A DNA stretch of 64,000 nucleotides from Valencia hispanica (taxonomy: Eukaryota > Chordata > Actinopteri > Cyprinodontiformes > Valenciidae), in contig OY747713.1 in assembly GCA_963556495.2 (NCBI GenBank), forward strand, positions 43,975,461 through 44,039,460, read 5' to 3'. Shown one piece after another: positions 4,446 to 13,548 of this stretch. The notes under the pieces are model-generated. The model was not told where the DNA came from. It did no database searches and saw only the letters and a program-made list of their open reading frames with translations. The translations under genes and the position numbers were made by a program. Every line of letters starts with the position of its first letter. Within the stretch, counting starts at the first letter, position 1.

Positions 4446-4850
4446 GGTTTCCTTGGAGGAGGGGGAAAAAGACAACATTTGTTCCACTTTACCAACCACC
4501 TGTCAACCGGGTGGGCTTTGGCCCAGACCCCCTCTACCCCACCACCAGAACCGAACAGAAAGTCCACCAACCTGCCACGGACAAGGAAAGCCTGCCACCG
4601 ACAAAAGACGTTCACCGGCAGGCACCGCTCTGCCTCAATTAGGGGAAAGGAACAGGTGGGCTTCGACCCGAACCCCCTCGTTCCGAACCGCAGAACCGAA
4701 GACAAAAGAGACCGAGCTGACACCGACAAGTTGCTGCAGCCATCTGACAAGGACAGCCAACGATAAACTCCCTTGATTGAGGCTTGATGTGGAGCAGCTG
4801 TGTGCCATTGTCAGCTGCTGCCACTGTCACAGCCGAGAAGACGGGATAAT
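4446..4850. other. upstream flank of recombinase gene, no gene seen
   Basis: GC-rich sequence with a loose internal duplication (GTGGGCTTTGGCCC near 4513 and GTGGGCTTCGACCC near 4655, each followed by CCCCCTC and AGAACCGAA). It may hold the promoter and 5'UTR of the minus-strand gene. No convincing coding sequence. Confidence 0.4.
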
Positions 4851-4951
4851 ACAGCTAAACAGTAAACAAAGTACATATCACATTCACACGTGCTCGTCAC
4901 GCTTCCGTGGGTACAGTTTGCAGAAGTGCCTGCATCACATATCCGTGAGAC

Positions 4952-5034
4952 GTCAGGATGGCCGAGCGGTCGAAGGTGCTGCGTTAAGGTCGCAGTCTCC
5001 CCTGGAGGCGTGGGTTCAAATCCCACTTCAGACA
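4952..5034 (+). tRNA. tRNA-Leu (AAG), copy 1
   Basis: Starts GTCAGGATGGCCGAGCGGTC with a good A box (TGGCCGAGCGG). The anticodon stem GCTGCG/CGCAG encloses loop TTAAGGT, anticodon AAG. The long variable arm TCTCCCCTGGAGGCG is typical of leucine tRNAs. The T arm is GTGGGTTCAAATCCCAC, with an A where the usual B box has G. The acceptor 3' strand TTCAGAC leaves one mismatch. Confidence 0.85.
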
Positions 5035-5269
5035 ACAACACCTCCCCTTTTCCAAGCAGACTGTACTAAAAGAGTTCATGTTTAAGGAGGAAGATTTTTT
5101 GACTCCTGACTACAGTGATTCCGGTGTCTCAATTTGAACAGGTAACATGTGAAATTTTGCCAGTAGTCACTGTGAAAGTAGAACTTTGCTGAACTCTAAA
5201 TCAAACGCCAAGGGCTCTAAGCCGTTGGTGGATATTCAATCCAAAGGTACCAGCAAAGCTAAGTATGAG

Positions 5270-5352
5270 GTCAGGATGGCGGAGCGGTCAAAGGCGCTGC
5301 GTTCAGGTCGCAGTCTCCCCTGGAGGCGTGGGTTCAAATCCCACTTCTGACA
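5270..5352 (+). tRNA. tRNA-Leu (CAG), copy 2
   Basis: Same architecture, with loop TTCAGGT giving anticodon CAG. Acceptor GTCAGGA pairs throughout with TTCTGAC, counting one G-T wobble. The A box has GGCGGAGCGG instead of GGCCGAGCGG. Best-preserved uninterrupted copy of the array. Confidence 0.87.
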
Positions 5353-5941
5353 TCTTTGTATGATTTCAATGAGGTGATACACAAACACACTGTGCTTGAT
5401 GGGATCATATTTTGGCAAGAAGATGTTTGCAAAGTTTCAACTTGCTTGGTTAAAGCCAGAACAAGAGTCTCTGGTCAGATAAGCCAACATCCGTCAGAGA
5501 TGTCAGAGACCTCGCTAGGTGTAATGGCAGTGGTTTAATCTAGAATTTGCTTAAGTAAGCACTATAGTACCTTAACACACCATAAAGAGGATGTGTTTTG
5601 TTAAAAGACATTCCATGCTTCTCTTTATCTTGGAAGAATGTCCCTTTTCAAAGTCCTCAAATGTTGGCCATTGAACTTTGTAGATTATTGCCGATATGTC
5701 ATGTTTTACACAAAGCTTATATCACGGCTATATGTAAGTAGGGACCACAGGAATGCACAGAATACCTATTGGTGGAATAAAAGAAATACAAACTGTAGGT
5801 ATAAACTGGAGCAAAATGTGGTCAATTTTCCAGGTTGTTACAAGCTAAACAGTCAACAAAGTACATATCACATTCACACGTGCTCGTCACGCTTCCGTGG
5901 GTACAGTTTGCAGAAGTGCCTGCATCGTATATCCGTGAGAC

Positions 5942-5971
5942 GTCAGGATGGCCGAGCGGTCAAAGGCGCTG
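5942..5971 (+). pseudogene. tRNA-Leu copy 3, 5' part, split by LINE
   Basis: The first 30 nt of a tRNA-Leu gene (acceptor 5' strand, D arm, start of anticodon stem) ending AAGGCGCTG. It then stops, and LINE sequence begins at 5972. The remainder lies 6.2 kb away at 12187-12248 and repeats the last 9 nt. Confidence 0.9.
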
Positions 5972-6113
5972 GCAAGCTCGTTAGTGGCAGCTGTGCAGCT
6001 GGAAGATAAGTTTTTGTGGAGACTGTGCTGAAGTTTTCTGCGTTTTTCTTGGTTTTCTCTGCGTATTTGAGTTTGTTTCATTGACTTTCAGTTATTAAAG
6101 TAGTTTTTGAAAC

Positions 6114-6143
6114 CCTCCCCTGCAGTTTTTCTGTAAGGGGAGG
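6114..6143 (+). other. hairpin in LINE 5'UTR
   Basis: CCTCCCCTGCAG and CTGTAAGGGGAGG form a stem of about 12 bp with one mismatch around a short T-rich loop, roughly 100 nt before the ORF1 start. Possible RNA element of the retrotransposon transcript. Confidence 0.5.
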
Positions 6144-6240
6144 CGCTTTCTTTTTCAAATTATGATAGATCAATCGGTAAACGGACAAGGAATGGACAAG
6201 GACAAAGAGCAAGGTGTGGTGGACAAAAAGTGAAAGTCAG

Positions 6241-7644
6241 ATGGATCAAGAATCAAGACAGAATAAGAATGGATCACCAATGATTAACAACCGAGATACA
6301 CAGGAGCAGCGGAATTCAGATAAGATGAGTATCAAATTCAGTAAAGAATTAACAGTTAAGATAGATCTGGAAGGGGAGGAGAGAGTGTCAGTTATGCAAT
6401 TGATCAGGACAATCAGGTTGCTATGTGGTGGGATTATCGGCTGCAGACAGACTGCCCCTCGATCTTATGAAATAGCAATGTCAAATGAACATGCCAGAGA
6501 CAAATTGATGGACGGTTTCAAAATTGGGAGTACTAGAGTGGTTTCCTCACCAATGATCTCAGATGAGATGATTGTTTCTTTCCTCAATCTTCCTTTCCAC
6601 GTAGAGGATGAGGAAATAATTGAAAAATTGAGGGGATGGGGTGTCCAGCCAGTTTCTTCAATAAGGAGGAGGAACTGGCCCGGCTCCAATATTGCAGACG
6701 GAACTAGATTCCTCAAAGTTCGATTTACAGATGAGATTAGGTCATTGCCATATTCTACTAAATTTCAGACAGTCAATGGAGCCCAATTTTTCAGAGTCAT
6801 ACATGACCGACAGGTGAGGGTCTGCAGAATCTGTCTGCAGCCAGGCCATATTTTGAGGGAGTGCCCTGATTTTCTCTGTCAGAAGTGTGGGAAGCAGGGC
6901 CATTATGCCCGAGAGTGCAGTGGAAATGCGGAGCGGTGTGCAGTATGCTTCAATATAACTAATAATTGTATTTGTAATCATAGCAGCCAGGAGCCTTCTA
7001 TGGATGAGCAGTCCTTTGAGTCTGCTCCAGAATTGGAAAAGGACAATGAGGAGGCTGAAAATGTGCCCGAAAGTGACTCTGCGCCTTTGGAGATACTGAT
7101 GTCACCCTCCAATTCAGTTGGGGGGGATGCTGAGGAGCTAGCGCCCACCCCTCGGATGGAGTGGATTTTTGGAAATCCTCGGGGTCTGGCAAAGGGGGGC
7201 GAATCTGAAAGGGATGCCACTCCGGAGCCAGCAGGGAGGACCTCGGTGTTGGGTCCTACTTTGTATGAGTCTGGCCAGGTAGCTCCACCTAATGAAGGAG
7301 AGCTTGTCACAAGTGGACAGAAGCTCGTAACGGCAAAACAGGGTAAGGAGGTCGAAAGAGACAGAAGTCTTTTGAGGAGAGAGAGAGACCGTAGTCGGAG
7401 TCCTGTTAAGGCTGAGGTAGCCCGGAAAACAAGCAACTCTGAATGGGGAAACTCGTTGCAGGATGTTTGCTTTGCTGTACCTTCCGTGCCAGACTCGTGC
7501 CCCGAGAGCACCGGCGCAGTAGATAAGCAATCATCAGAGGGGGATTCTGAGAGGGAGTCAGAATTGGGGGCTGGAAAACACAGGCAAACCTCGAGCAGGA
7601 AATCGACGAAAGAGAGGAAAAAACTAAATGGTAAGAGAAAATGA
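6241..7644 (+). CDS. LINE ORF1: RNA-binding protein with CCHC zinc knuckles
   Basis: 467 residues from the first in-frame ATG; the open frame extends upstream only from GTG. The N-terminal half (about residues 25-180) looks like an RRM-like fold, with conserved stretches such as VSVMQLIRTIRLLCGG and VVSSPMISDEMIVSFLNLPF. Residues about 195-235 hold two perfect CCHC knuckles, CRICLQPGHILREC and CQKCGKQGHYAREC, plus a partial third, CAVCFNITNNC. The C-terminal part is acidic, then Arg/Ser-rich (RDRSRSPVKAE). By family, ORF1 coats the element's RNA and acts as a nucleic-acid chaperone. Its stop overlaps the first ATG of ORF2 as ATGA at 7641-7644. A short upstream ORF (6192-6233) precedes it. Confidence 0.85.
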   Translation: MDQESRQNKNGSPMINNRDTQEQRNSDKMSIKFSKELTVKIDLEGEERVSVMQLIRTIRLLCGGIIGCRQTAPRSYEIAMSNEHARDKLMDGFKIGSTRVVSSPMISDEMIVSFLNLPFHVEDEEIIEKLRGWGVQPVSSIRRRNWPGSNIADGTRFLKVRFTDEIRSLPYSTKFQTVNGAQFFRVIHDRQVRVCRICLQPGHILRECPDFLCQKCGKQGHYARECSGNAERCAVCFNITNNCICNHSSQEPSMDEQSFESAPELEKDNEEAENVPESDSAPLEILMSPSNSVGGDAEELAPTPRMEWIFGNPRGLAKGGESERDATPEPAGRTSVLGPTLYESGQVAPPNEGELVTSGQKLVTAKQGKEVERDRSLLRRERDRSRSPVKAEVARKTSNSEWGNSLQDVCFAVPSVPDSCPESTGAVDKQSSEGDSERESELGAGKHRQTSSRKSTKERKKLNGKRK

Positions 7645-10600
7645 TGGCTGAGGTGTGTGACTGTGCCTCTTATTATTCCCGGTGCACTCTTGTGGGGGAA
7701 GTACAGTGGAGGGGGGTCGGGGCATACTCACCGAAATGTGTATGGCTGAGGAGGGAGCTCCTGATCGGCCTGATACTTTTGTCATGGCATGAGACTGTTC
7801 TCCTCTCAATTTGGTTCTCTTTGTGTGTTATGTTTATAGAAATTGATCAGAGGAATGAGCTCATTTTGTTTTTCTCCCTATCGAATAGGAAAGCGCGGAG
7901 GAGCAGTGTTGGAATTGTGAAGAAGTGGGGAACGCACACTTTTCCAGCCGTGTGGGAAGACGGAAGGACACGAACAGGAAACTTCACTGAAAGTCTTGGA
8001 AATTGCCCTGACCTCTGGAGAAAAGAAGACAACATAAGAAACGATGGAACAAATGAGAAAGAGTGGACAGTTCTAAGGAAGGGAAAGAGTGAGGTATGGA
8101 GAAGACAACAATTCTCCTCCACTATTTACTGTAACATGACCTGGCCATTATCACTTGTGTCACTGAACTGTAATGGACTAAGAAACTATGAAAGAGCCCA
8201 AATGATATGTAGATTACTCAGAGGAGACATAATATGTCTGCAAGAAACTCACTGGACTTCAGAAATGGAAAAGAAAGTAACTGCATCATTGAAGGGAAGT
8301 TTTTATATAAACAATGGCTCTGAAAATGCATGTGGTGTGGCAATATGGTTCAAGGAATGTGATGTTTCCTCTCTAGTAGAGGTATATAAGGACAACGAAG
8401 GAAGACTACTAATAGTTGATTTTGTGTATGCAGGAGAATCTTATAGACTGATTAATGTATATGTTCCAAATTTAGAGACAGAAAAAAGGAAGTTTTTGGC
8501 AAATATAAAAGTTTGGTTGAATGATAGAACTATAGTTTTAGGCGACTTTAATTTGAAATTATGTAGATTAGATTATGGAAATAATGTAGCAATAAAACAT
8601 CGCTCCTCGAAAACAATACTAACTAAAATAATGGAAGAGAAAAATCTAATAGATGCCTGGAGAGCTCTGAATCCAAACAAACAAGTCTTTTCAAGGAGGC
8701 AGCTTGTACAAGGGGTCCTAAAACAGAGTAGGATAGATTTATGTTTGGTAACTAATGATCTTTTTCTATTAGTAAATAAAATTGGTTATAAGTTTATTGG
8801 AGGGGGAGATCATGCAATGCTATATTGCTCAATAGGAAGTAGAATTACAAACAGATCCGGGGGCATATGGTGCCTCAATAATTCGCTTTTGGAATGTGAA
8901 GTATACAAAAGAATGATAAAAAACTTATTAATAGATGAGAGAGAAGATGACATATTTGAACAGGATATTTGCAGGTGGTGGGAGAAGATGAAGAATCTGA
9001 TCAAATTAAAAACAATTAGGTTTGCCAAAGTTAGAAGTTTTAGACACTCAGAAAGAGAGAAAAGTCTTAGACGAGAGTTGGAAAAGGAGGCAGAGAAAAT
9101 AGAAAAGGATCCTGATAGAGAAATAACACACTTTGTGCAGCTAAAAACCGAACTAGGGGATCTTGAACGGCTGAGGTGGAGGGGACAGCTCATTAGAAGC
9201 AGGGCAGATTATGCTGTAAAAGGAGAAAAATGCAATGACTTTTTCTTTAACTTGGAGAAAACAAGACAAAAACGTCAATACATAACTAAATTGAGGAACG
9301 AGGAAGGAAAGGAATTAAATGAATTGGCAGATATAGTCATAGAGGCTGAAGATTTTTACAGGAATTTATTCAGGAGTTCTAAAACAAGAGAAGAAGACAT
9401 TAATATAGCATTGAATGCAGTCGACAGACGATTAAGTAAGGATGATAGTGAATTATGTGATTTGGATATCATAGAAAAAGAAATAGGGCTTGCCATTTCA
9501 CAATTGAAGTCCAATAAAAGTCCAGGTTTGGATGGGTTACCGGGAGAATTTTATAAAACATTCTCGGAAGAGCTCCTACCAATATTGGGGAAAGTATATT
9601 CAGAAATGGAGAGATGAAATAAAATAAGTGAACAAATGGCAACAGGTGTAATCATATTGATATATAAAAAGAAAGGCAGTGCATTGAATCTTGAAAATTA
9701 CAGACCAATCACTCTTTTAAATACAGATTACAAAATATTGTCCAAAATATTAGCGAACCGGATTAAAGATATAGTAGAAACCATTGTGCAACCCCCACAG
9801 GCTTATGCAGTACCAGGACGAGAATTAACAGACATGTTAAACTCTGTGAGAGATGTTGTGGACAAGATGAACCAGGAAAAAGCTGGTGGAATTTTAATAA
9901 GTATTGATCTTAAGAAAGCTTTTGACCGTGTAGATCATTCATATTTAGGGAAATTACTGCAAAAATATGGCTTTGGTGAGAGACTTAGAAACTGGGTCAG
10001 ACTACTAACAAGAAATGCAAAAAGTAGATTGAAAATTAATGGTATATTAACAGACTCATTTAATTTGGAAAGATCTGTGAGACAAGGCTGTCCTTTGTCA
10101 GCAATACTTTACACACTGACAGCCGAGCCCCTCGCAGCGCTGATCAGATCAAATATGGATGTTAAAGGGATTGTGGTACCTGGTGGGACACAAAGTAAAA
10201 TCTTCCAATATGCTGATGATATAACGGTAACAGTACAGGATCTAAATAGTGTCAAAAATGTTTTACAAATTCTCAAGATATATGAAGGTGCATCAAGGGC
10301 CCAAGTTAATCTAACAAAGTCGGAAATAATGTTTTTTGGAGATCAGAGACATGAACAGTATGACCTACCCCTAAAGATATGTGAGGAAAATGTAAAAATA
10401 TTAGGTATACATTTTGGCAGGGATCAAACACAGGCTAGAGACACCACATGGGCAGGAGTAATAAACAAAATTAAAACAACTCTGTTTTTGTGGAAGCAAA
10501 GATCTTTAAAGCTGAAAGGAAAGATCTTGATAGCAAATAATTTGCTAATCTCAAAGTTAGGATATGTTATAAATGTTCTGGACATGCCAAGTTGGGTCAT

Positions 10601-11963
10601 CAACCAGCTTGGACAATTACTGAACAGGTTTATTTGGAAAGGAAACAAAACGGAAATAGCCCATACAACATTAATTGCGGATTACAACAAAGGAGGTTTA
10701 AAATTAACAGACGTGGCTACTAAATTAAAAGCATGCAGAATAAAAATGATGATTAAATATCTAAACAATAAGAATGATAGTATATGGAAACATTTCCTAA
10801 GATCCTTCTTAGTACATGTGACTGGGTGTGGAGACGAGGGTATATTCATGGATATGAGACAGAAGAGAAACTTGTTAGAGGATATACCAAAATTTTATGG
10901 GGAAGTGATATGTGCATGGTCAGAATTGAGAGATTTTATCAAGTACACCTGTAGAACTTGGAATCAAATCACAAACCAACCAATATTTTTGAATCCGGAA
11001 ATACACTGTCAAGGCAAAGCATTATTCAATGAGACATTTTGGCGAGCAGGAATTAGACAGATAAAGGATCTGCTTTATGAATATGTGCCAGGCTTTCTGC
11101 CCAATGATGCCATAAAAGAACAAACTTTATTAGTAAATCAGGATATGCAAATATCTCTCCTGGAGAACTGGATAAGAAAAATAAAGGAAAGCATACCCCA
11201 AAACTGGCAAAAGGTCATACTAAATAGCAGTAGAGAAAACAGTAAAGCAGAATTGCCAGAACTGTATATAGAACTGAATGGTATTAGAATTGGATTGAAA
11301 GAACTAAAGACAAAAGACTTATATAAGATATTGTTGAGAAAAAGGTTAAAACAACCTGCTGCTGTAAAGTTTTGGAAGAGAGAATTAGGAGAGCATATTG
11401 CAGGAAAATTATGGAACAACCTTCATCTTAAATACAATAGCTTAGAAAGTGAAAACTTGGACTTCAAAATAAGACACAATAGAATATATACAAATAAGAT
11501 TCTACACTGCATAGACAGTTCAGTAAATAAACTGTGTGACATTTGTAAGGAGAAGGAGGAGGACTTAATGCATCTGTTTTTCAATTGTAAATATTTGAAG
11601 GGGTTTCTTGACATGCTGTGGAATTTATTGCACAGGAAGTGGGGCATTAAGTTGGACAGAAAGGATTGGAAGTGGGTGTATTTTGTTGGGGTGAGCGGGA
11701 GTGAGTGTGGAACAAGTGAAAGAGTGAATATAAATTTGCTGAATGTGGTGATAAGTTTGGGTAAATATGCAGTATGGCTGAGAAGGAATGAGGCACATTT
11801 TGGAGGTAGAGTGGTGGAGGTTTCCCCTATTTTTAAAACACTGGTTAAGACACATGTTAAGTTGATATCTGAGATTTTGGAGGATGACATGTTTGGGAGG
11901 GAATTTGTAAGTAGGAACACTCTTGTTAAGAGAGAGGGGAAGGAAGTGATTTTGTGCTTTTGA
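7641..11963 (+). CDS. LINE ORF2: APE endonuclease and reverse transcriptase, one in-frame stop
   Basis: One frame of 1440 codons broken only by TGA at 9615-9617, between the endonuclease and the first RT motif. The endonuclease carries LSLVSLNCNGL, catalytic DIICLQETHW near residue 200, VLGDFN, and GGGDHAML. The RT has YRPITLLNTDYKILSKILANRI, ISIDLKKAFDRVDH (motif A), RQGCPLSAILYTL and FQYADDITV (catalytic YADD near residue 856). A C-terminal CDICKEKEEDLMHLFFNC resembles the CCHC motif of LINE ORF2s. Homology to endonucleases begins near 8145, so the functional start may be ATG 8136 (about 1275 codons, the usual size). The 165 codons before it are basic and hydrophobic and resemble no domain I know. 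ORF2 nicks the target and primes cDNA synthesis. Confidence 0.88.
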
Positions 11964-12171
11964 AAAAGGTATGTTTCTGAGATGTTTCTATTAGAAATAA
12001 TTGACTTGGTTGTATTTTGTTTGTATTATTTTGTCACAGTCCCCTGTACTAAAATAGATTGGGACAAGTACTGACCCTGTGCAAATAGATGTATAACTCT
12101 GTGTAGTTCTTATTGTAATTGTTGCAATTTTATTGTATGTGACATTTTGTTTTATATTTAGAAATTTTTCT

Positions 12172-12177
12172 AATAAA
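12172..12177 (+). terminator. LINE polyadenylation signal
   Basis: AATAAA 9 nt before the end of the element (12186). The element ends in AAATTAAAGAG rather than a homopolymer tail. Confidence 0.55.
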
Positions 12178-12186
12178 ATTAAAGAG

Positions 12187-12248
12187 AAGGCGCTGCATTA
12201 AGGTCGCAGTCTCCCTTGGAGGCGTGGGTTCGAATTCCACTTCTGACA
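12187..12248 (+). pseudogene. tRNA-Leu copy 3, 3' part
   Basis: Begins with the 9 bp target duplication AAGGCGCTG, then CATTAAGG (anticodon AAG), the variable arm, the canonical B box GGTTCGAATTC and acceptor strand TTCTGAC. Joined to 5942-5971 minus one copy of the duplication, it would be a full tRNA-Leu of about 83 nt. It is inactive as interrupted unless the fragment's internal promoter is used. Confidence 0.88.
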
Positions 12249-12483
12249 ACAACACCTCCCCTTTTCCAAGCAGACTGTACTAAAAGAGTTGATGTTTAAG
12301 GAGGAAGATCTTCTGACTCCTGGCTACAGTGAGTCCAGTGTTTCAATTTGAACAGGTAACAAGTTAATTTTGCCAGTAGTCACTGTGAAAGTAGAACATT
12401 GCTGAACTCTAAATCAATCTCCAAGTGCTCTAAGCCATTGTTGGATATTCAATCCAAAGGTACCTGTAAAGCTACAGTACAAC

Positions 12484-12566
12484 ATGAGGATGGCTGAGCG
12501 GTCAAAGGTGCTGTGTTCAGGTCGCAGTCTCTTCCAGAGGCGTGGGTTCAAATCCAACTTCTAACA
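12484..12566 (+). pseudogene. degenerate tRNA-Leu (CAG), copy 4
   Basis: Same layout but eroded: acceptor ATGAGGA against TTCTAAC with mismatches, anticodon stem CTGTG against CGCAG, variable arm CTTCCAGAGG, and T stem GTGGG against CCAAC. Probably a pseudogene. Confidence 0.7.
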
Positions 12567-12802
12567 ACAAGCCCTTGCCTTTTACAAGCAGACTGTACTA
12601 AAAGAGTTGCTGTTTAAGGAGGAAGATTTTTTGACTCCTCTCTACAGTTATTCCGGTGTTTCAATTTGAACAGGTAACATGTGAAATTTTGCGAGTATTC
12701 ACTGTGAAAGTAGAACTTTGCTGAACACTAAATCAAACTCCAAGTGCTCTAAGCCATTGGTGGATATTCAATCCAAAGGTACCTGCAAAGGTACATTAAG
12801 AC

Positions 12803-12885
12803 GTCACAATGGCCGAGCGGTCAGAAGCGCTGCGTTCAGGTTGTAGTCTCACATGGAGGCGTGGGTGCAAATCCCATTTATGACA
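12803..12885 (+). pseudogene. degenerate tRNA-Leu (CAG), copy 5
   Basis: GTCACAATGGCCGAGCGGTC start, anticodon loop TTCAGGT, but the T loop is GGTGCAAATC instead of GGTTC, which damages the B box, and the acceptor and anticodon stems have mismatches. Likely inactive. Confidence 0.65.
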
Positions 12886-13236
12886 GCCTTGTATGAATTT
12901 TTGGAGTTAATACACAAACACATCGTGCTTAATGGGATCATATTTTGGCAAGATGTTTGCAAAGTTTCCGCTTGCTTGCTTAAAGGCAGAACAAGAGTCT
13001 CTGGTCAGATAAGCCAACATTCGTCAGAGATGTCAGAGACCCCGCTAGGTGTAATGGCAGTGGTTTACTCTAGAATTTGCCTAAGTAAGCACTATAGTAA
13101 CTGGAGCACAATGTGGTCAATTTTCCAGGTTGTTAAAAGCTAAACAGTCGACAAAGTCCGTGTCACATTCACATGTGCGCTTCACGCATCCGAGGGTACA
13201 GTTTGCAGAAGTGCCTGCATCGCATGTCTGTGAGAC

Positions 13237-13271
13237 GTCAGGATGGCCGAGTGGTCGAAGGTGCTGCGTTA
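13237..13271 (+). pseudogene. truncated tRNA-Leu, copy 6
   Basis: Only the first 35 nt (through GCTGCGTTAA) match tRNA-Leu. The sequence then changes to AGGAGTCATAACC and, about 65 nt later, an A-rich tract at 13336-13370. The upstream flank is the standard array flank. Confidence 0.7.
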
Positions 13272-13548
13272 AAGGAGTCATAACCTAGTATCACCTTGGA
13301 TACCCACGCTTTATCATGTTCCTTTAGGCCCTTCTAAAAAAAAAAAAAAAAAGTAAAAAAAAAATAAACAGAGTTACTCTGACCCTTATTTCTGAAGGCA
13401 TTCTTGTCTCGCGAGATCTGATGCGATATTTTGGCTGTCGTGCACGGTCATTGTAATAATGCAAATGAGGGCCGCGTTGATTTGTGGCAGGAAACAGGGG
13501 GTTTGACACCGCAGGTAACGCTTCAGCATATCATTCCAAAATAACATA

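Follow-up and report, generated by a model that had tools for sequence, protein, structure and literature searches.

How does a long interspersed nuclear element (LINE) come to lie inside a tRNA gene, and was its site chosen or accidental? The question is raised by a 64,000-nucleotide (nt) stretch of the genome of the fish Valencia hispanica (GenBank assembly GCA_963556495.2, contig OY747713.1, positions 43,975,461 to 44,039,460), here called the window, in which a LINE divides a tRNA-Leu gene. We consider it about 90% probable that this LINE is an L1/Tx1-type site-specific non-long-terminal-repeat (non-LTR) retrotransposon that uses one position in tRNA-Leu and is related to elements inserted in 5S rRNA genes, the users of tRNA genes most likely having come from 5S-using ancestors. 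The case bears on the open question of how LINE endonucleases acquire and alter their sequence specificity. The parts of the locus are as follows.

5942 to 5971, + strand: 5' part of the interrupted tRNA-Leu(AAG) gene, nt 1-30 (joined flanks, ARAGORN)
5963 to 5971, + strand: 5' copy of the target-site duplication, AAGGCGCTG (identical at the 5' end of 7/8 copies)
5972 to 12186, + strand: the LINE, about 6215 bp, oriented as the tRNA gene (junctions; inverted duplicate L027 99.97% identical)
12187 to 12195, + strand: 3' copy of the target-site duplication, AAGGCGCTG (repeat of 5963 to 5971)
12187 to 12248, + strand: 3' part of the interrupted tRNA-Leu gene, nt 22-83 (joined flanks, ARAGORN)

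When the two flanks are joined and one repeat is taken out, ARAGORN reports tRNA-Leu(aag); this and the coordinates bear out the initial annotation, made from the window alone, of a LINE inside a tRNA-Leu gene cut after nt 30 and bounded by a 9-bp repeat. LINEs are integrated from a first, priming nick, whose place the 3' junction records; here this junction falls between linear tRNA nt 21 and 22, at the edge of the D-loop and D-stem (A21 in standard tRNA numbering, assigned by hand for all sites discussed here). The second cut, after nt 30, falls in the anticodon stem, so that the annotation's placement of the cut in that stem holds for the second cut and fails for the 3' junction.

The same position recurs throughout the host genome (1.29 Gb, 29 contigs), which was searched with a procedure that skips very common words, the copy counts being lower bounds. 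An initial query containing tRNA sequence as well recovered 8 copies of the LINE. The initial annotation had proposed listing the flanks of every copy; with queries made of the LINE only, this places all 8 at one tRNA-Leu position. The 3' 787 bp gave 17 matches, namely the same 8 tRNA-Leu copies (hereafter Leu copies) and 9 from related families (16/16 candidates scored); the 3' 223 bp gave 8 matches, all of them these copies; and the 5' 428 bp gave 13, of which 8 were the Leu copies. Every 3' end (8/8) meets tRNA-Leu at AAGGCGCTG, or at AAGGTCCTT in L032, a decayed copy with 84% identity, and among the 8 copies so found none has an unrelated 3' flank. The 5' ends of 7/8 copies read AAGGCGCTGG/CAAGCTCG across the junction, L032 being alignable only from element position 43; the G at 5972 may be assigned to either side of the junction in the UAG copies. 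The copies on contig C16 (the window copy, L027, and L026) lie in tRNA-Leu(AAG) genes of tRNA arrays, and the five on C3 in tRNA-Leu(UAG) genes with unrelated spacers, their likeness to the window ending at the tRNA end or earlier; the joined flanks of the copies accordingly yield tRNA-Leu(aag) and tRNA-Leu(tag). The proposal that the family is specific for tRNA-Leu is thus upheld by a common 3' site in 8/8 copies, two isoacceptor groups, and two contigs. A 23-bp target pattern, allowing at most one mismatch, has 515 matches in the 1.29 Gb, a count that takes in the 5' halves of occupied genes, versus 0 for a reversed control. With 8/8 copies found at the same site and this excess over the control, chance can be excluded, and the site specificity of the LINE is very well supported. 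As a separate observation, tRNA-Leu(UAG) sites recur every ~1.1-1.2 kb at C3:8214669-8359173 and from C3:13331960 onward, forming a long tandem tRNA array.

Could a single random insertion, devoid of target specificity, have been multiplied by duplication of tRNA arrays? Duplication has occurred: L027 is an inverted duplicate of the window copy, 99.97% identical to it, and over 1.25 kb the 3' flanks of the two agree at 99.9%; L028-L030 share identical 5' flanks. However, the C3 copies occupy genes of another isoacceptor, on another contig and among unrelated spacers, so that the site is not accounted for by array DNA held in common; yet four of these five match the window copy at 98.7-99.2% identity, and the fifth (84%) predates that split. 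The related families, moreover, behave alike in other genes, and we regard array duplication as the source of the pattern as barely credible. L028-L030 had been considered 5' truncated, a view dropped because full, correctly oriented 5' ends lie 17-18 kb from each 3' end; for the same reason they appear to be split by a nested insert.

The element of the window, which inserted at this fixed site, has the following parts (ORF, open reading frame; UTR, untranslated region; RT, reverse transcriptase; APE-type, of the apurinic/apyrimidinic endonuclease type).

6113 to 6143, + strand: 5' UTR hairpin, CCCTCCCCT...AGGGGAGG (also in the Gln, Lys, and 5S families)
6181 to 7641, + strand: ORF1, stop-to-stop frame of 487 amino acids (aa) with a CCHC zinc knuckle (PF00098, E 2.6e-9)
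7635 to 9614, + strand: first part of ORF2, APE-type endonuclease and start of the RT region (PF03372, E 7.3e-12; LINE-1 ORF2, E 1.8e-32)
9615 to 9617, + strand: in-frame TGA breaking ORF2 of the window copy (sequence, ORF list)
9618 to 11960, + strand: second part of ORF2, RT and zf-RVT (PF00078, E 6.8e-36; PF13966, E 1.9e-7)
11964 to 12186, + strand: 3' UTR ending AATAAAATTAAAGAG, lacking a long poly(A) tail

Thus, both ORFs of the two-ORF LINE initially described are present, but ORF2 is not intact in the window copy. Among solved structures its top sequence match is LINE-1 ORF2. Features of the Tx1 clade are found together here: an APE-type endonuclease and an L1-group RT in ORF2, a separate ORF1, and target-specific insertion (8/8 copies found). 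Identities of 97-99.97% between the recent Leu copies and the window copy suggest recent amplification and duplication of the family. Open full-length ORF2 frames occur in one copy of the Gln family (1309 aa) and two of the first 5S family (1299 aa), and the second 5S family has four open frames of 1270 aa. The hairpin, followed by NGCTTT, is kept in the Leu, Gln, Lys, and 5S families, whose RTs differ by up to half; it was seen in the window and in L031, L032, L033, L034, L036, L037, and L073. A covariation test on 8 rows and 10 predicted pairs found its sequence conserved and compensatory changes in none.

A protein search of the host genome with the RT part gave 70 matches (58 of 32421 candidates scored). 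The 3' flanks were viewed at 36 places, comprising the 8 Leu copies, 8 first relatives (L033-L040), and 20 chosen from these matches (L049-L068), and the junction was resolved at 31 of them. In the tRNA-Gln family, 4/4 3' ends adjoin tRNA-Gln (L033-L035, L058), tRNA-Gln(ttg) being recovered from the joined flanks of L034 and L035, while L033 gives an untyped tRNA and a 5' repeat with one mismatch. In the tRNA-Lys family, 5/6 adjoin tRNA-Lys (L051, L053-L056); tRNA-Lys(ctt) was recovered from the flanks of one copy on C17, and the other assignments are by likeness to that copy. In the 5S-inserted families, among them those on C23 and C19, 12/12 3' ends adjoin 5S rRNA genes (L036-L040, L049, L050, L060, L062, L064-L066). 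A single copy, L057, has its 3' end (1/1) adjoining the anticodon of what we take to be tRNA-Asp, as read from a half gene; its 5' end was not found in the stretch examined (L074). At three other places the viewed part lay in another repeat (L059), had no known site (L063), or was half N (L061). The sixth Lys-type member, L052 (C19:16095500-16096900), lies in a tRNA-like repeat, at its GGTAGAG motif, outside the tRNA-Lys genes, possibly as an off-target event. Two distant L1-like copies, L067 (C1) and L068 (C7), whose RT identity is 28%, have their 3' ends directly against TTC microsatellites, which may be a further site preference.

The 3' junctions lie ~17-22 nt from the gene 5' end in tRNA-Leu, tRNA-Gln, tRNA-Lys, and 5S. 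Leu insertions duplicate AAGGCGCTG(G), Gln insertions AGCACTCTGGACT, Lys insertions GGTAGAGCATGAGAC (the two repeats differing by one mismatch), and 5S insertions about ACACGCCCGATC; the duplication starts at A21 in Leu and Gln and at G18, three bases earlier, in Lys. The Leu elements and most of the Lys elements end in AATAAAAT(T/C)AAAGAA, of which Gln and 5S carry close variants. The Leu family belongs to a small clade of this genome with fixed sites in tRNA-Leu, tRNA-Gln, tRNA-Lys, and 5S, and in one tRNA-Asp copy.

The RTs of these families are 64% (Leu-Gln), 63% over 300 residues (Leu-Lys), and 52% (Leu and the first 5S family) identical. In the protein database (7992 candidates scored for Leu, 1512 at E up to 0.001), the closest near-full-length relative of the Leu ORF2 among the 120 listed of these 1512 reaches at most 47%, with one partial match at 50%; near-full-length relatives of the Gln ORF2 reach at most 44% among the 101 listed (7991 candidates scored). 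A search for relatives in viral contigs confirmed none. In the RT trees, Leu and Gln group together (support 100/97), joined by Lys (99/96) and then by 5Sa and Asp (98/96), with 5Sb and the database protein P0003 outside; in placing the RT in Tx1, the 5S-inserted families of this genome stood in for the named references Tx1L, Mutsu, and Keno. A single clade of the three 5S rows is rejected (approximately unbiased test, p-AU 0.0017), and the Leu, Gln, and Lys clade sits among 5S-inserted lineages. The simplest reading, though not a proven one, is that the lineage switched from 5S to tRNA genes, the members that target tRNA genes being most likely derived from ones that targeted 5S. We favor with moderate confidence the wider view that one lineage within one genome uses at least four and probably five targets transcribed by RNA polymerase III (Pol III), namely 5S and tRNA-Leu, -Gln, -Lys, and -Asp, and passed from 5S to tRNA genes through a series of switches of its APE-type endonuclease.

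Several points weigh against the reading proposed at the outset. Some copies are mutual duplicates, so that the 8 represent at least 3 integration events, perhaps 5: the three counted conservatively are C16, C3 recent, and C3 old, and L026 is probably a fourth, because its flanks differ from those of the window copy (83-92% identity) more than the element does (97%). None of the Leu copies examined has an open full-length ORF2. All tRNA rows together are weakly supported (79/31), and the second RT tree, in which Asp and 5Sc are long branches, needs two changes for the tRNA rows, with one change in 52% of bootstrap trees. The direction of the switch depends on the root, the RT trees being midpoint-rooted; the bootstrap of the tree used in the approximately unbiased test had not settled; and the database relatives in the trees are proteins of unstated target. 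Finally, a comparison of the Leu, Gln, and 5S sites at the insertion register revealed no significant common motif, which weakens simple retargeting by likeness of sites. Motif likeness was set aside as a route of switching; the register scores were ordinary, save that of Leu(UAG) against Gln, which are homologous tRNA positions.

The lack of a common motif is also what lends some credit to a different mechanism, in which the element would be tethered to the Pol III machinery (TFIIIC/TFIIIB) and its endonuclease would itself be unspecific, as in Dictyostelium TRE5 or yeast Ty. This retains a small probability: every target that is certain is a Pol III gene, and in Leu, Gln, Lys, and 5S the insertions begin close to the gene 5' end. 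However, every family keeps to one gene type and one base, the 8 Leu copies were found in no other tRNA, and the tRNA-Asp copy adjoins the anticodon, deeper in its gene. Tethered tRNA targeting is known in amoebae and yeast, where, according to PMC5911963, the elements insert outside the gene and at a distance. On balance we regard tethering as improbable.

Because each family uses one gene and one base, we infer instead that the endonuclease of the site-specific LINE recognizes naked DNA directly. Target-primed reverse transcription is established for LINEs. The endonuclease would most likely nick the bottom strand immediately ahead of tRNA nt 22 (5'-CAGCGCCTT/TGACC), and the freed 3' end (bottom strand 5'-CAGCGCCTT in Leu(AAG)) would prime reverse transcription of the element RNA, whose 3' end is AATAAAATTAAAGA(A/G). 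A cut of the top strand 9-10 bp away would then produce the duplication AAGGCGCTG(G).

The interrupted gene is one of several, as window positions 4850-13272 contain part of a tRNA-Leu array.

4952 to 5034, + strand: uninterrupted tRNA-Leu(AAG), same array (ARAGORN, Rfam)
5270 to 5352, + strand: uninterrupted tRNA-Leu(CAG), same array, with an empty target site (ARAGORN, Rfam)
12484 to 12566: uninterrupted tRNA-Leu(CAG) (ARAGORN; absent from the Rfam list at gathering scores)
12803 to 12885: tRNA-Leu array gene (Rfam at gathering scores)

Minisatellite arrays with units of ~50, 80, and 128 bp occupy positions 40-2434, just 5' of the tRNA-Leu array. Another tRNA-Leu(AAG) copy (13236-13285) is broken at the TTAA of its anticodon loop, the cut being at 13272, by a repeat beginning AGGAGTCATAACC. 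That repeat end also adjoins TTTAAAT in L074, and in L067 a variant of it adjoins TTAA; these motifs suggest a TTAA-targeting (piggyBac-like) DNA transposon. A search for its far terminal repeat gave an exact match for the near end only, the rest being at chance level.

The presence in one genome of relatives in other small-RNA genes makes a study of target change possible. As these are close relatives (RT identity 64% for Leu-Gln and 52% for Leu-5S) with distinct, defined sites, and as one Gln copy and two copies of the first 5S family keep an open full-length ORF2, the Leu, Gln, and 5S families allow a direct enzyme-by-site comparison. Interest in targeted LINEs extends to their use as gene-insertion tools. 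Among the titles and abstracts of the literature searched, with Repbase and Kojima & Fujiwara 2004 outside the search, none reported that an APE-type LINE occupies tRNA-Leu, -Gln, or -Lys genes, and the novelty of such elements is claimed in this limited sense.

Among known elements, Tx1L of Xenopus is likewise APE-type, site-specific, and of the L1/Tx1 group, but its target is another transposon. The NeSL-related lineages carry a restriction-like endonuclease. Their members LIN15_SM, LIN25_SM, and NeSL-1_TV are, according to PMC4640811, specific for tRNA-Arg, tRNA-Glu, and tRNA-Pro, and thus also target tRNA genes, the Leu LINE differing in its APE-type endonuclease. Outside the tRNA families, the nearest relatives with a known target are the Mutsu-like families that this genome carries in its 5S genes, the first of which has 52% RT identity to the Leu family. 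Mutsu itself is described as a 5S-specific zebrafish LINE, alongside the U2-targeting Keno (PMC3706591), and as ~5.5 kb long with two ORFs (PMC11202950). Like Mutsu so described, the Leu LINE keeps to one site in a Pol III gene that is present in many copies; unlike it, the Leu LINE lies in tRNA-Leu in 8/8 copies, and its duplication of 9-10 bp contrasts with ~11-13 bp in the 5S families of this genome.

Could the element instead be the zebrafish family Dewa, or its orthologue, already known to be associated with tRNA-Leu? The two share tRNA-Leu loci, and PMC3706591 groups Dewa with Mutsu, Keno, and R2; it gives the Dewa target, however, as the tRNA-Leu spacer, whereas the present insertion is within the gene body. 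In this comparison, made by description only, the identity appears unlikely. The DNA transposon Dada-tL, as described in PMC3706591, also lies inside tRNA-Leu, its duplication GCGTTCA standing directly 3' of AAGGCGCT in tRNA-Leu(CAG); it has a DDE transposase, duplications of 6-7 bp, and no RT, in contrast to the RT and APE-type proteins and 9-10-bp duplications of the Leu LINE. Lastly, the Dictyostelium elements TRE5 and TRE3 are also tRNA-linked L1-type LINEs, and according to PMC5911963 they integrate at tens of bp from the gene, on either side of it. The Leu LINE offers an example of a LINE resident within tRNA gene bodies instead of one tethered at a distance from them.

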